A program made the position numbers and the translations under genes. Shown piece after piece: positions 31,197 to 35,400 of a stretch of 41,991 nucleotides of DNA. The notes beneath the pieces are model-generated. The model was not told the origin of the DNA. It did no database searches and saw nothing but the letters and a program-made list of their open reading frames with translations. The stretch covers positions 1-41,991 of the forward strand of contig CANJQI010000025.1 in assembly GCA_947476215.1 (NCBI GenBank). The letters run 5' to 3'. Each line of letters begins with the position of its first letter. Position 1 is the stretch's first letter. The DNA is from Betaproteobacteria bacterium. GTDB lineage: Bacteria > Pseudomonadota > Gammaproteobacteria > Burkholderiales > SG8-41.

Positions 31197-32192
31197 TCAG
31201 TCTATACGCACGCCCGTCTCCTTGACCACCTTTCCCCACTTGGCGAGCTCGGCCCTGAGGAATGCCGCGAGTTCCTCGGGTGTGCAGCTGATCAGCTCGG
31301 TGCCCTGACTGGATACCTGCTCCTTGACGTCCGGCATATTGAGAACTTTCAGAATCTCGGCGTGCAGCCTGGCGATCACTTCCCTGGGTGTCCCGGCAGG
31401 AGCGACCGCGCTATACCAGACGTCCACCACATAGCCCGGCAGGCCGGATTCCGCCAGCGTAGGTAATTCCGGCGCCGGCGCGGCGCGCTTGGCGCTGGTG
31501 ATCGCGAGCGCGCGCAGCCTGCCCGCCTTGACCTGGGGCGCGACCGCGTTGATGGGCGAAAACATGAATTGCGTTTGTCCGCTCAGCACCCCCGTCGTCG
31601 CTTCAGTATTGCCCCTGTGAGGCACGTGCACGACATTGATTCCGGCCATGCTGCTGAACAAGTGAGCCGCAAGATGCGGCGAACCGCCATTTCCACTCGA
31701 CGAATAATAAAGCTGGCCGGGGCGCAACTTCGCCAACGCAACCAGTTCTTTCAAGTTCCGCACCGGCAATGAGGGATGGACAATCAATATCAGCGGCGTT
31801 GATCCCATCAATGTGATCGGCAAAAAGTCCTTCGCCAAATCAAATGTAAGGTTGCTGTACAGACTGGCATTGACGGCAAGGGGCTGCGGCAGGAACAACA
31901 ACGTATATCCATCGGGCGCGGCTTTCGCGGCAAACGCGGCGCCGATGTTTCCGCCCGCGCCGACGCGATTATCAATGATCACCTGCTGCCCGAGGGCGAC
32001 ACTCAGTTTCTGACCGATGATGCGCGCGAATATGTCGGCGCCGCCGCCAGCGGCATACGGCAGTATCAGGCGAACGGCCTTGGTCGGGTATTGCTGGGCG
32101 CTGAGCCCAGACGCGCTGAGCATTGATAGGCAACCCATTGCAGGCAGGATAATCGTCGCAGTCGGACGCCGCATGATTTCAGCACACAACAT
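31197..32192 (-). CDS. Bug/TctC-family substrate-binding protein
   Basis: A 331-residue binding protein, first in the minus-strand series 32192-28272. The start is uncertain: in-frame ATGs at 32228, 32192 and 32174 all precede a plausible signal peptide (ATIILPAMGCLSMLSASG to LSA-Q). 32192 is chosen for its GTGAG at seven bases and a reasonable N-region. Signatures are LPYAAGGGADIFARI, DNRVGAGGNI, VHPSLPVRNL, HVPHRGNTEATTGV, AKRAAPAPELPTL and APAGTPREV. YKG is replaced by HRG. The 27881-28024 remnant derives from a close relative of this gene. Confidence 0.9.
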   Translation of the reverse strand: MLCAEIMRRPTATIILPAMGCLSMLSASGLSAQQYPTKAVRLILPYAAGGGADIFARIIGQKLSVALGQQVIIDNRVGAGGNIGAAFAAKAAPDGYTLLFLPQPLAVNASLYSNLTFDLAKDFLPITLMGSTPLILIVHPSLPVRNLKELVALAKLRPGQLYYSSSGNGGSPHLAAHLFSSMAGINVVHVPHRGNTEATTGVLSGQTQFMFSPINAVAPQVKAGRLRALAITSAKRAAPAPELPTLAESGLPGYVVDVWYSAVAPAGTPREVIARLHAEILKVLNMPDVKEQVSSQGTELISCTPEELAAFLRAELAKWGKVVKETGVRID

Positions 32193-32375
32193 GAAGCAGC
32201 TCACATACCCTCTTGGACTATCTCTCATGAGTTAATCGGATTGATCGTCAGCAACGGACATTATTCAGTGTAACGACGGTACGTATCGTGGTCAATTATC
32301 GTTTGTTGACTTGCCCGAAACCACCATGCTATGGTCAGTGCGGACATTGTCCCGACAAAAACGAGGAGACATGAA

Positions 32376-32957
32376 ATGAACGGAGCGCTTCGGGAACTCA
32401 TGGATCCAAGGGGAACCCCCCAGATAGGCGCGAGAGCGCTTGCACCCCGCCTCGACACCCTGGCCGGCAAAACGATCGGCCTGCTCGACAACGGCAAACC
32501 GAACTTCAATCTGTTTTTGGTGGATCTCGCGCAGTTACTGCGCGCCCAGTGCCCCACTGTGCGCATCGTGGAACGAATGAAACCGATAGTGCCGCGCCCC
32601 GTACCCAAGGAAATGCTGGCGGAGCTGGCGGCATCGTGCGACGCGGTGGTGACTGGTCTCGGGGATTGAGGGGGGTGCGCATCGTGGTGTACCCACGATT
32701 CGGTTGAGTTTGAAAAAAGAAACGTGCCGACCGCGCTGGTGTGCAGCACCGCGTTCGCGCCCGCCGCGCGCAGCCTGGCCAAGGCTCTTGGCGTTCCCGA
32801 CCTCATGATAGCCACGATACCCCATCCTTTCTCGTGGAGTGGCTTGAGCCGCGAAGACATCAGCACGCGGGTCAATGGCGTGCTCGATCAGGTCATGAGA
32901 GGCCTGACCAAGACGACGGAAACGGCACCGCGCCTAAGCGCGGGCGGACGACGCTAA
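32376..32957 (+). CDS. UGSC-family selenoprotein (TGA at codon 98 read as selenocysteine)
   Basis: A 193-residue protein if TGA at 32667-32669 encodes selenocysteine. The frame is uninterrupted on both sides: AVVTGLGD, then U98, then GGCASWCTHDSVEFEKR, which is the hallmark region of the UGSC (seleno)protein family. Here the motif is U-G-G-C (U98, C101), with Ser changed to Gly. The downstream half (VPTALVCSTAFAPAA, ALGVPDLMIATIPHPF) also matches the family and would be lost by termination. The ATG at 32376 has AGGAG seven bases upstream. The stop TAA abuts the ATG of the next gene. A redox role is inferred from the Sec/Cys pair; the biochemical function is unknown to me. Confidence 0.85.
32681..32699 (+). 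promoter_or_regulatory. Candidate bacterial SECIS hairpin
   Basis: ATCGTGG (32681-32687) pairs perfectly with CCACGAT (32693-32699) around a 5-nt TGTAC loop, beginning 11 nt after the in-frame TGA. The apical GGUGU stands about 17-21 nt from the UGA, where SelB-binding bacterial SECIS loops lie. The hairpin is inside the coding frame, as required. The call is from position and pairing only; loop identity is not a perfect match to fdhF. Confidence 0.6.
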
Positions 32958-34004
32958 ATGTCCGCTCCCGGCAAATTACTGTCGCCGGACTCGGTTCAGG
33001 AGACCAACGACCAGTTCTACCGCATGGGTTTGACGGACGGCCTGCCCATCATTCCACCCACGCCGGATTTGGTGGATGCGATGATCGCCCCATCGGGTCG
33101 CGATGCGCAGGAGGTGATAGGTATCGTGCCGCCCTCGTCAGGGGTGGCCACGGTCGAGAAGATCGCCACCAATGCGGTGATGGCCGGATGCTTGCCGGAG
33201 CATCTGCCGGTGGTCATTGCCGCCGTGGAAGCATGCATCGAAGAGAGTTTCAATCTCTACGGCATACAAAACACCACCCATCCGACAACGCCGTTGCTGA
33301 TGGTGCATGGGCCGATAGCCAGGGCGCTGGAGGTCAACAGCGGTTCTTCCTGCCTGGGATATGGCGCGCGCGCCAACGCCGTCATCGGTCGTGCATTACG
33401 GCTCATACTGATCAACATCGGCGGTGGCGAGCGGCGTGCCACGCACGGGCAGCCCGGCAACTATTCCTTTTGCTTCGCGGAGAGCGAAGACAAGAGTCCG
33501 TGGGCGCCTTTTCATGCCGACCGGGGATACGACCGCAACGCTAGCGCCGTGTCGGCGTTCGGCGCCGGCGGCACCATGAATCTGCGGCCCTTTCCTCAAC
33601 GGGGACGCGATGTGCTGGCCAGCATAGCTCGCATGATCGCGCTCGGCGGCAGCCCGCGCTCGCATGGATATGCGCTGATCATACTCAATCCGGAGCATGC
33701 CCGCGTCATCGCCGAGGACGGCTTTTCCAAGGAAAGCGCGAGAGACTACCTGTTCGAGCATTCGAAGGTTCGTCCCAAGGGCTACATGGACGAAGTCGCG
33801 CAAACGTGGATGGAAGAACGGGGGCTGGAGCACATGGATGTCCGAAAGATAATCGGCGAAATCAAGCCCGACACCTGGGTGCCCAGCGCCGATGCACCGG
33901 AAAACATACATATCGTGGTCGCGGGAGGCTCCGGCGGGCATTCGGTGTTCATACCGTTGTGCTTTACCCAACCGACACCCGTAGTAACCAAGCTGGTGCG
34001 CTAG
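32958..34004 (+). CDS. Conserved protein of unknown function, partner of the UGSC selenoprotein
   Basis: A 348-residue cytoplasmic protein without signal peptide or membrane segments. Its ATG follows the UGSC stop directly (TAAATG), which suggests coupled translation and a complex. Conserved-looking blocks are YRMGLTDGLPIIPPT (near 21-35), NAVMAGCLPEHLPVV (72-86), TTPLLMVHGPIARALEVNSG (110-129) and CLGYGARANAVIGRALRLI (132-150), then a Gly-rich NIGGG. Cysteines C78, C93, C132 and C172 are candidates for interaction with the Sec/Cys motif. I recall this N-S-G/A-N-x-x-I-G-R-A family as widespread but uncharacterised; no enzyme class can be assigned. Confidence 0.85.
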   Translation: MSAPGKLLSPDSVQETNDQFYRMGLTDGLPIIPPTPDLVDAMIAPSGRDAQEVIGIVPPSSGVATVEKIATNAVMAGCLPEHLPVVIAAVEACIEESFNLYGIQNTTHPTTPLLMVHGPIARALEVNSGSSCLGYGARANAVIGRALRLILINIGGGERRATHGQPGNYSFCFAESEDKSPWAPFHADRGYDRNASAVSAFGAGGTMNLRPFPQRGRDVLASIARMIALGGSPRSHGYALIILNPEHARVIAEDGFSKESARDYLFEHSKVRPKGYMDEVAQTWMEERGLEHMDVRKIIGEIKPDTWVPSADAPENIHIVVAGGSGGHSVFIPLCFTQPTPVVTKLVR

Positions 34005-34209: not shown

Positions 34210-35400
34210 GTGTCCAGCCTCGCCAACCGCTTTGATTCTCGGATGACCATATATCTGATTGTGTTGATGGGCACGTTGGTCCATATCGGCTTCACCGGCA
34301 GCCGGGTTGCCGTTTCGCTCTACGCGCTGAATCAGGGCGCGAATCAAATCGAGATTGGTGCGCTGGTGGCGCTCTACGCGGTGTGCCCGGCGCTGCTTTC
34401 GATCGTCATCGGCAAATTTTCCGACCGGGTCGCAACCCGGGTACCGATGATCATAGGCGCGGCAGGCGTGGGCATTGCGCTACTCCTGCCGGTCACCTCT
34501 CCCGGCATCGCCGTGCTCTTTGCCGTATCGTTTCTGGTAGGGCTTTTCAATCAAACTTTCAATATCCCGATGGAGGCGATCTTAGGCGGCATCGGTGGCG
34601 TGGATAAACGGGCTCGCAACTACGCGCTGGCGGGCATGGGTTTCTCCACGGCGAGTTTCTTCGGGCCCTTGTTAACCGGATTCGCGATAGACCACATCGG
34701 CTATCTGCACGTGTTTCCGATACTTGCTGCGTTTACCTTGGCGCCCATACTGATCCTGTGGTTCATGCCGACGCTATTACCCAAGGTGACCAAACATTCC
34801 AGCGCGGAAAAACGCGGCAGCATACTGGATTTGTGGCGCATTCCGGCTTTGCGTTCCACGTTTATTGCGGGTGGCATCATCGCGTCGGCGTGGGATTTGT
34901 TTCAGTTTTATCTGCCGATCTACGGACATTCGATCGGACTTTCCGCCTCCGCCATCGGAACCATCATCGGAACCGTGGCGATCGCAACGTTTGTGGTGCG
35001 CGGGATAGTCCCGTTGCTGGTGAAGAAACTCACCGAAACTCAGATCATGACCTATTCCATTTTTATTTCAGCACTCGCGTTCGTGCTGCTGCCATTCTTC
35101 GTGAATCCCTACGCACTGGCCGGCATTGGCTTCCTGATCGGGATGGGCATCGGTTGTGCCCAGCCGATCTCGATGTCGTTAATTTACGTAATGACACCGC
35201 GGGGCCGCGTGGCGGAAGCCACCGGCCTGCGTAAAACGGTGAATCAATCCACGCACCTGGTCATTCCGCTGATCTTCGGCAGCGTAGGCGCAGCGTTCGG
35301 ATTCATGACCGTATTTCTGTCGACTGCTATCATTTTGGCCGCCGGTGGTTTCCTGATGCAGAAGACGCGCGTGCCGACGCCGGACAGCGCGGGTAAATAG
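34210..35400 (+). CDS. MFS transporter
   Basis: A 396-residue major facilitator superfamily permease with about 12 hydrophobic segments. The loop 2-3 motif is GKFSDRVATRVP (residues 68-79), and a second half begins after the basic linker KVTKHSSAEKRG. It likely exports or imports a small metabolite by proton exchange. The start is GTG at 34210 with GGAG 11 bases upstream; an ATG at 34243 is an alternative. It follows the UGSC pair by 205 bp on the same strand. That gap holds no gene and may contain its own promoter, so operon membership is uncertain. Confidence 0.88.
   Translation: MSSLANRFDSRMTIYLIVLMGTLVHIGFTGSRVAVSLYALNQGANQIEIGALVALYAVCPALLSIVIGKFSDRVATRVPMIIGAAGVGIALLLPVTSPGIAVLFAVSFLVGLFNQTFNIPMEAILGGIGGVDKRARNYALAGMGFSTASFFGPLLTGFAIDHIGYLHVFPILAAFTLAPILILWFMPTLLPKVTKHSSAEKRGSILDLWRIPALRSTFIAGGIIASAWDLFQFYLPIYGHSIGLSASAIGTIIGTVAIATFVVRGIVPLLVKKLTETQIMTYSIFISALAFVLLPFFVNPYALAGIGFLIGMGIGCAQPISMSLIYVMTPRGRVAEATGLRKTVNQSTHLVIPLIFGSVGAAFGFMTVFLSTAIILAAGGFLMQKTRVPTPDSAGK

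Follow-up and report, generated by a model that had tools for sequence, protein, structure and literature searches.

The stretch of DNA analysed here, called the window below, is the 41,991-nucleotide contig CANJQI010000025.1 (C25 in our numbering) of a 5.75-Mb assembly from a Betaproteobacteria bacterium (GCA_947476215.1; 326 contigs, 98.46% complete and 1.17% contaminated). It carries a gene of the UGSC family of selenoproteins with an in-frame TGA codon, read as selenocysteine (Sec), and directly behind it a second gene, here named P2 (Table 1). When the TGA is translated as a residue the frame runs without any shift to a single terminal stop, TAA, and yields 193 residues, in agreement with the initial annotation; this sole in-frame TGA is residue 98, in the context GLGD-U-GGC-ASWC-THDSVEFEKR. 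The same annotation expected an ordinary gene call to end at the TGA and to split the gene in two, and mechanical calling of open reading frames (ORFs) does exactly this, giving one frame at 32331-32669, which stops at the TGA, and another at 32724-32957. The proposed family was likewise recovered with the full translation, which matches PF24696 from residue 8 to residue 178, spanning the TGA, with an E-value of 4.5e-50 and 170.6 bits (cut-off 25), and NF041046 with 136.3 bits (cut-off 125); PF24696 is the only Pfam match of this protein (P0001) at E<=1. The motif is indeed UGGC instead of UGSC, as had been pointed out, but it is an ordinary variant found in 12 of 53 copies of this genome and in 3 of 71 elsewhere, and its reading as a special motif was rejected. 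As a purely computational prediction, selenocysteine coding at TGA 32667 is near certain. Taken by itself the gene belongs to a known family and is ordinary within it, unlike its genome-scale setting of 53 copies and their pairing with P2, which is out of the ordinary; the P2 partner, the other copies and the GrdB kinship described below are all invisible from the window alone.

Table 1. Features around the UGSC gene of the window
Feature	Position	Strand	Evidence and remarks
TctC-family solute receptor, divergent neighbour	31197..32228	-	PF03401, E 3.7e-68
GAGGAG, ribosome-binding-site-like, upstream of ATG 32376	32363..32368	+	sequence only
UGSC-family selenoprotein gene	32376..32957	+	193 residues, Sec98; translation, PF24696 and NF041046
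In-frame TGA, read as selenocysteine	32667..32669	+	column invariant in 51 aligned copies
Codon of Cys101, which probably acts as the resolving cysteine of U-x-x-C	32676..32678	+	invariant in 51/51
SECIS-like (selenocysteine insertion sequence-like) hairpin, 7-bp stem, loop TGTAC	32681..32699	+	sequence; pairs kept in the family
P2 partner gene (P0002), 348 residues	32958..34004	+	ATG directly after the UGSC stop codon; pairing in 54/55 domains of the genome
MFS transporter, downstream	34210..35400	+	PF07690, E 7.2e-44

The genome holds 58 matches to PF24696, 57 of them above the cut-off and 54 with a TGA inside. The motif of these 54 domains is UGSC in 31, UGGC in 12, UGAC in seven, UGTC in three and UESC in one broken copy, so that 53 copies, the window gene counted, have their TGA within UG[SGAT]C; two of them (L069 and L075) look incomplete. 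The UESC copy (L074, 3671-4505) lies in pieces in several frames ahead of a P2 gene. In the alignment of 51 copies (A1), from which the partial L069, L074 and L075 were excluded, no variation is seen at the Sec position or at Gly99, Cys101 and Pro11.

The initial annotation had tied its reading to the presence of Sec machinery elsewhere in the genome, and this machinery is complete. The gene for tRNA-Sec (74.1 bits, gathering score 47; called tRNA-SeC with anticodon tca by ARAGORN) is found on contig C221 together with selB (446 bits) and selA (584 bits), and selD (424 bits) carries Sec itself (GGGUGCK). Moreover, selB is above its cut-off in 55 of the 60 genomes of the family to which the window belongs, its own genome counted. 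With the 53 UGSC copies, GrdA, GrdB, two GrdB-like genes and SelD, the genes with a TGA at the Sec site amount to 56 to 58, a count that covers these families only and in which the incomplete-looking L069 and L075 are the doubtful members; many of them are expected to be broken by ordinary gene calling. In the accessible text of a 2026 review 57 and 63 selenoprotein genes per genome are quoted as records (PMC13188914), and a report on Geodermatophilaceae, likewise available in part, describes UGSC selenoproteins with TAG as Sec codon and a tRNA-Sec with anticodon CUA (PMC5330540).

A perfect 7-bp stem-loop beginning 11 nt after the TGA had also been claimed, and it is present, with the arms ATCGTGG (32681-32687) and CCACGAT (32693-32699). 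At this single gene an equal or longer stem arises in 11.8% of 2000 synonymous recodings (p about 0.12), and folding of the 49-nt stretch gives another hairpin as the structure of minimum energy (z -1.56); the window hairpin is not put forward as evidence by itself, and its case rests on the family. As a family set the hairpin after the UGA is clearly significant. In 48 of the 53 copies the stem has 6 bp or more, against 17.9 +/- 3.5 after synonymous recoding (highest of 200 rounds: 29), and the mean energy is -13.8 kcal/mol against -7.6 +/- 0.35, where 16 codons past the UGA were recoded with codon frequencies from the same genes and the copies, being related, are not independent. In addition, serine at codon +7 is encoded by AGT in 28 of 28 cases, as compared with 9.7% of the 1092 serine codons in the rest of these genes; the window gene has cysteine, not serine, at this codon. 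Among the 29 copies with tryptophan at codon +6, to which the window gene belongs, seven pairs are kept in 29/29 and an eighth in 26/29, with exchanges of G-C, A-U and G-U at one pair and of U-A and A-U at another. The other 24 copies mostly have a hairpin of differing sequence with the register shifted by one (8 to 24 of 24 paired per position). The GrdB gene and the two GrdB-like genes of the genome also show a 7-bp stem starting 11 nt past the UGA, and the stem of SelD is less regular. It is barely credible that translation truly stops at the TGA, or that the TGA reflects an assembly error or a decayed gene: a few broken or cut copies exist (L074, L069, L075) and the window hairpin alone is not significant, but against this stand the TGA in 54 of 58 matches and in one invariant column, the excess of hairpins just given, the full Sec machinery and the conservation of the half of the protein that follows the TGA.

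The P2 family has 62 matches in the genome, some of them partial. In an alignment of 52 of its members R145, E175 and W182 are invariant and C78 is nearly so. Of 55 UGSC domains, 54 either share a frame with a P2 domain or have one on the same strand no more than 178 bp away, the exception being the fragment L069. These 55 are the domains with a model span of at least 90, so that two Sec-less copies are included and smaller fragments are left out. Of the 54 pairs 36 form one frame read through the TGA, 12 have UGSC first and six have P2 first; chains of at least 300 residues, their length counted up to the next TGA, are found in 31 of 54 copies. Relatives from other genomes were taken as the best 80 of 571 matches to the P2 alignment. 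A UGSC match is held by 70 of these 80 loci (in L147 as a fragment only) and not by ten; L096, L139 and L148 have the P2 gene at their very start, and L081 stops shortly past its own. One cultivated carrier, Xenophilus azovorans DSM 13620, has a single pair (L151). P2 stands within 965 bp of UGSC in all 78 UGSC domains of these loci; since the loci were fetched by P2 they cannot reveal UGSC without P2, which only the PF24696 search of the window's own genome could do. The protein P0002 gave no Pfam match at E<=1, and P2 could not be assigned to a known Pfam family, as the 16 families met among 52 members were each hit by one member only (best E 0.014). None of the 52 members matched NCBIfam, and the best E-value against PDB sequences was 0.099. 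The pairing of UGSC with P2 is established, and a two-component function is proposed.

Outside this genome UGSC matches were found in all 24 other genomes searched of the genus and family (4 to 31 each), in 3 of 16 other genomes of the order and in 4 of 397 other sampled genomes of the phylum, with at least one or two matches each; in this last scan at most eight candidates were scored per genome (eight instead of 58 for the window's own), so that its copy numbers are lower bounds. The initial annotation had taken homologues with neither Sec nor Cys at the site as evidence against a selenoprotein. A scripted reading of the 78 UGSC domains from other genomes gave 71 UGxC, three CGxC, two other forms with U and two with neither, and inspection of four odd cases by eye resolved them as a UGSC cut at its end (L092), UGTS (L145), CGTS (L097) and neither (L142). 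The final tally is 73 with Sec, four with Cys and one with neither, to be set beside the 54 domains of the window's genome with TGA. Cys forms adjoining P2 were seen in the haloarchaeon Natrialba (L086) and in metagenome-assembled genomes (MAGs) of Sphingomonas (L113) and Binatia (L129).

The copies of the genome differ widely from one another. The nearest relative of the window copy is L036, for UGSC (61% identity) as well as for P2 (68%). Among the P2 domains of this genome the median pairwise identity is 35%, and the maximum is 76% in comparisons that cover at least 150 columns. In a tree of 146 P2 domains, made by a quick method, the 53 rows of this genome are interspersed with those of other genomes, with 24 label changes of which at least 16 are forced by starred branches. 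By these sequence comparisons the diversification of the copies is old. Mixing of strains as the source of the copy number is not supported, the highest identity being 76% and the contamination 1.17%. The tree also places L145 and L097 as sister proteins on a starred branch, the second Cys of the motif being lost in both and the first position being Sec in one and Cys in the other. Eight of the 80 loci (L101, L115, L127, L128, L135, L142, L154 and L155), several of them with two or three P2 copies, come from a single Chloroflexi MAG, JACPQD01, which perhaps represents a second expanded lineage. L091, L126 and L145 come from metagenome bins titled 'Bordetella parapertussis', a species label that seems doubtful.

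GrdB and PrdB are the substrate-binding selenoproteins of glycine reductase and D-proline reductase. The genome has a GrdB gene (L160 on contig C148; VSTUGTCTRC), with GrdA nearby (L191, also on C148; CFVU), and two GrdB-like genes with U-P-N-C (L163 on C52 and L164 on C99), all with TGA at the Sec site; L163 shares its contig with two UGSC-P2 pairs (L031). When a UGSC alignment (A4) was compared by hhalign with an alignment of five GrdB-like Sec regions, U-x-x-C fell on U-x-x-C with an E-value of 4e-7 and a probability of 93%; with one GrdB region the values were 5.6e-6 and 86%, and the alignment A1 of this genome alone gave 1.2e-6, each E-value being that of a single comparison. As controls, 171 proteins from 20 other stretches gave a best E-value of 0.012 with A4, and none reached 5.6e-6; the controls were whole single proteins, and the GrdB queries had been trimmed to a length of about 110 residues. 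No match to UGSC was obtained with the GrdB segment ahead of its TGA (E 0.19). In the same way PF07355, whose match in the GrdB of this genome ends just ahead of the TGA and which tests the part before the Sec region, found nothing in the window protein at E<=1. By these profile comparisons the UGSC half is distantly related to the Sec region of GrdB, sharing with it the Sec domain only and not the whole architecture, because neither the part before the TGA nor P2 and GrdE match. The candidate identity of P2 as GrdE is not supported (E 0.16 when the P2 alignment was compared with the GrdE-like protein on C148), and consequently neither is activation by a partner of the GrdE/PrdA (pyruvoyl) type.

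Structures were predicted with AlphaFold2, with high confidence, for the window UGSC protein (predicted local distance difference test, pLDDT, 92.8; predicted template modelling score, pTM, 0.86) and for a fused relative, L132 (94.6 and 0.93). The UGSC model is an alternating beta-alpha sandwich with strands at 33-38, 63-68, 90-96, 119-124 and 144-148 and helices between them, and Sec98 is predicted to sit between strand 90-96 and helix 99-114. Compared with PDB folds it looks generic, with ten matches at E<=0.001 and template modelling scores (TM-scores, by query length) of at most 0.53 in the 50 matches shown of 1763. For the fused model three matches had E<=0.001, none of them convincing, and the TM-scores in the 50 shown were at most 0.21; most of these cover about 140-230 columns, and three extend over 405-491 columns at 0.17-0.18. 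It is decidedly unlikely that UGSC proteins, while being real selenoproteins, are general thiol-disulfide or peroxide-defence proteins of thioredoxin-like fold with no catabolic role. The predicted topology differs from that fold and no thioredoxin occurs among the 50 PDB matches shown of 1763, so a thioredoxin-like fold is not supported by the model, and about fifty diverged copies, each with P2 (one fragment excepted) and many near receptors, would not be expected of a housekeeping reductase.

Genes for TctC-type receptors are frequent around the UGSC copies. They make up 80 of 185 unique flanking ORFs (37/92 and 43/93) as compared with 28 of 148 ORFs elsewhere (Fisher p 2e-6), the background being 148 of 171 ORFs called in 20 other stretches, free of UGSC and P2; in terms of density the UGSC loci (421 kb, with the window counted in full) hold 128 and the other stretches (180 kb) hold 33. 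The association with receptors holds for this genome. The window (1-41991) has 14 TctC-type matches in its 42 kb, as befits a very receptor-rich genome. MmgE/PrpD genes were also considered as specific neighbours, but with 17/185 against 6/148 (p 0.08) their enrichment is not significant. The neighbours bear as well on the idea that Sec is a ligand of a metal or metalloid and that the proteins detoxify or traffic metals, which the Sao selenoproteins of ABC (ATP-binding cassette)-receptor systems tied to metals bring to mind (PMC13188914, from the portion at hand). This we hold to be very improbable, as no metal-resistance family occurs in the top 25 neighbour families shown for each of three scans (of 64, 69 and 165), where a single FUR regulator appears, and the frequent neighbours are receptors, CoA (coenzyme A) transferases and other catabolic enzymes.

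Taken together, these features point to about fifty paralogues, nearly all paired with P2, as a large family of selenium enzymes that would act on small organic compounds. The explanation that we favour, with modest confidence, is a two-component selenoenzyme resembling GrdB/PrdB, with UGSC as the catalytic half and P2 beside it, each copy specific for its substrate and using Sec to attack a small organic molecule. SelB and tRNA-Sec would place selenocysteine at UGA 32667 with the aid of the downstream hairpin, and the product would form the catalytic half of an enzyme whose other half would be encoded by the abutting 32958-34004, the two halves being often one chain elsewhere. As regards the chemistry we infer, by analogy, that the partner domain would hold a small organic substrate and the Sec98 selenolate would attack it at an activated carbon, that Cys101 of the U-x-x-C would release the product through a Se-S bond and that a reductant of the thioredoxin type would reset the enzyme. 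The copies would then be substrate-specific versions of one module, and the nearby periplasmic receptors would import their substrates. Such substrate-specific reductive enzymes fit the invariant U-x-x-C, the homology of the Sec domain, the second domain, the age of the copies and the receptors. We regard it as unlikely that UGSC-P2 is instead non-reductive, acting as an isomerase, a lyase or in selenyl transfer on carboxylates with catalysis that needs no redox cycling. MmgE/PrpD isomerase-dehydratases and family III CoA transferases among the neighbours would suit such an enzyme, as would the UGTS and CGTS proteins L145 and L097, which have no second Cys; set against it are the Cys of U-x-x-C, invariant in 51 of 51 copies of the genome as expected of a Se-S resolving step, and the lack of a significant MmgE/PrpD enrichment.

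Several observations weigh against the two-component reductive enzyme. Both Sec and Cys are absent from the site in two UGSC-P2 fusions of the genome (L076 and L077), and the same is true of L142 (frame at 987), which has the two-domain layout in another genome; these three form one clade that spans this genome and the Chloroflexi MAG. Six P2 loci of the genome (L185-L190) show no UGSC in the flanks that were fetched, several of them being partial or at a contig end. The kinship with GrdB rests on a profile comparison over 68-82 columns, with UGSC the only family matched by P0001 in Pfam, and P2 has no similarity to the GrdE-like protein. As to the receptors, part of the signal comes from the high background (28/148 ORFs), their presence within 3 kb of 48 of 55 P2 genes of the genome is near chance given 33 in 180 kb, and in other genomes only 30 of 94 P2 genes have one within 3 kb. 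The flanks of the non-betaproteobacterial loci (148 of 162 ORFs, 14 having been dropped for size, near-duplication or the limit) are led by SBP_bac_5 with ten, followed by CoA transferase III with seven, luciferase-like proteins with six and amidohydrolases with five, all as raw counts. Finally, no biochemistry of UGSC was found in the literature examined, which was available in part.

UGSC proteins are among the commonest selenoproteins of aquatic metagenomes, with 255 in the Global Ocean Sampling (GOS) set according to the part of the source at hand (PMC2398784), and the functions of most such selenoprotein families are uncharacterised in the excerpts of the 2026 review (PMC13188914). The function of UGSC becomes testable through its nearly constant partner, its link with GrdB and the receptors close by. 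A literature search of partial coverage found no description of the constant partner, of the GrdB tie or of the UGSC expansion, and a prior description is possible. More tentatively, UGSC and P2 might represent a large superfamily, hitherto unrecognised, of selenium-dependent enzymes with two components that cleave C-X bonds and arose as a second radiation of the GrdB/PrdB-type Sec domain, with many substrate-specific copies per genome and cognate receptors in environmental Betaproteobacteria, Chloroflexota, Rokubacteria and others. If this were true, many organic compounds would be catabolised by these organisms with the support of selenium.

Among the known systems the UGSC family itself (PF24696, NF041046; the UGSC-containing protein of Zhang and Gladyshev) is the closest, with a full-length profile match, Sec in U-G-x-C and the hairpin; the window gene differs in its UGGC, an ordinary variant, in having its partner as a separate abutting gene and in the 53 TGA copies of one genome. 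A fusion of UGSC to a domain named 'Unknown_1' was noted in 2008, as far as the available text goes (PMC2398784), and Unknown_1 may or may not be P2. With GrdB/PrdB (PF07355, TIGR04483) the family has U-x-x-C in common, the motif under which GrdB and D-proline reductase are listed in the accessible part of the review (PMC13188914), and in the GrdB of this genome the motif is followed by an E...GVP-V stretch as in UGSC. Moreover, Sec aligns on Sec, and the hairpin stands at the same distance from the UGA in GrdB and the GrdB-like genes of the genome. The differences from GrdB/PrdB, where the comparison was made with GrdB and GrdB-like proteins, are the short common stretch and a partner, P2, that is not of the GrdE type. 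FarB, a GrdB-like protein that acts with FarE and for which cleavage of the carbon-fluorine (C-F) bond of fluoroacetate by Sec attack has been proposed (PMC10838667, as are the statements on FarB that follow, from the text at hand), offers a further parallel. FarB and FarE are GrdB and GrdE homologues of a rumen bacterium, Cloacibacillus porcorum, and P2 and UGSC are unmentioned in that text. Like the genome studied here, C. porcorum has several Sec-containing GrdB-like copies or B complexes, and one copy, proposed to be substrate-specific, shares its operon with an MFS transporter.
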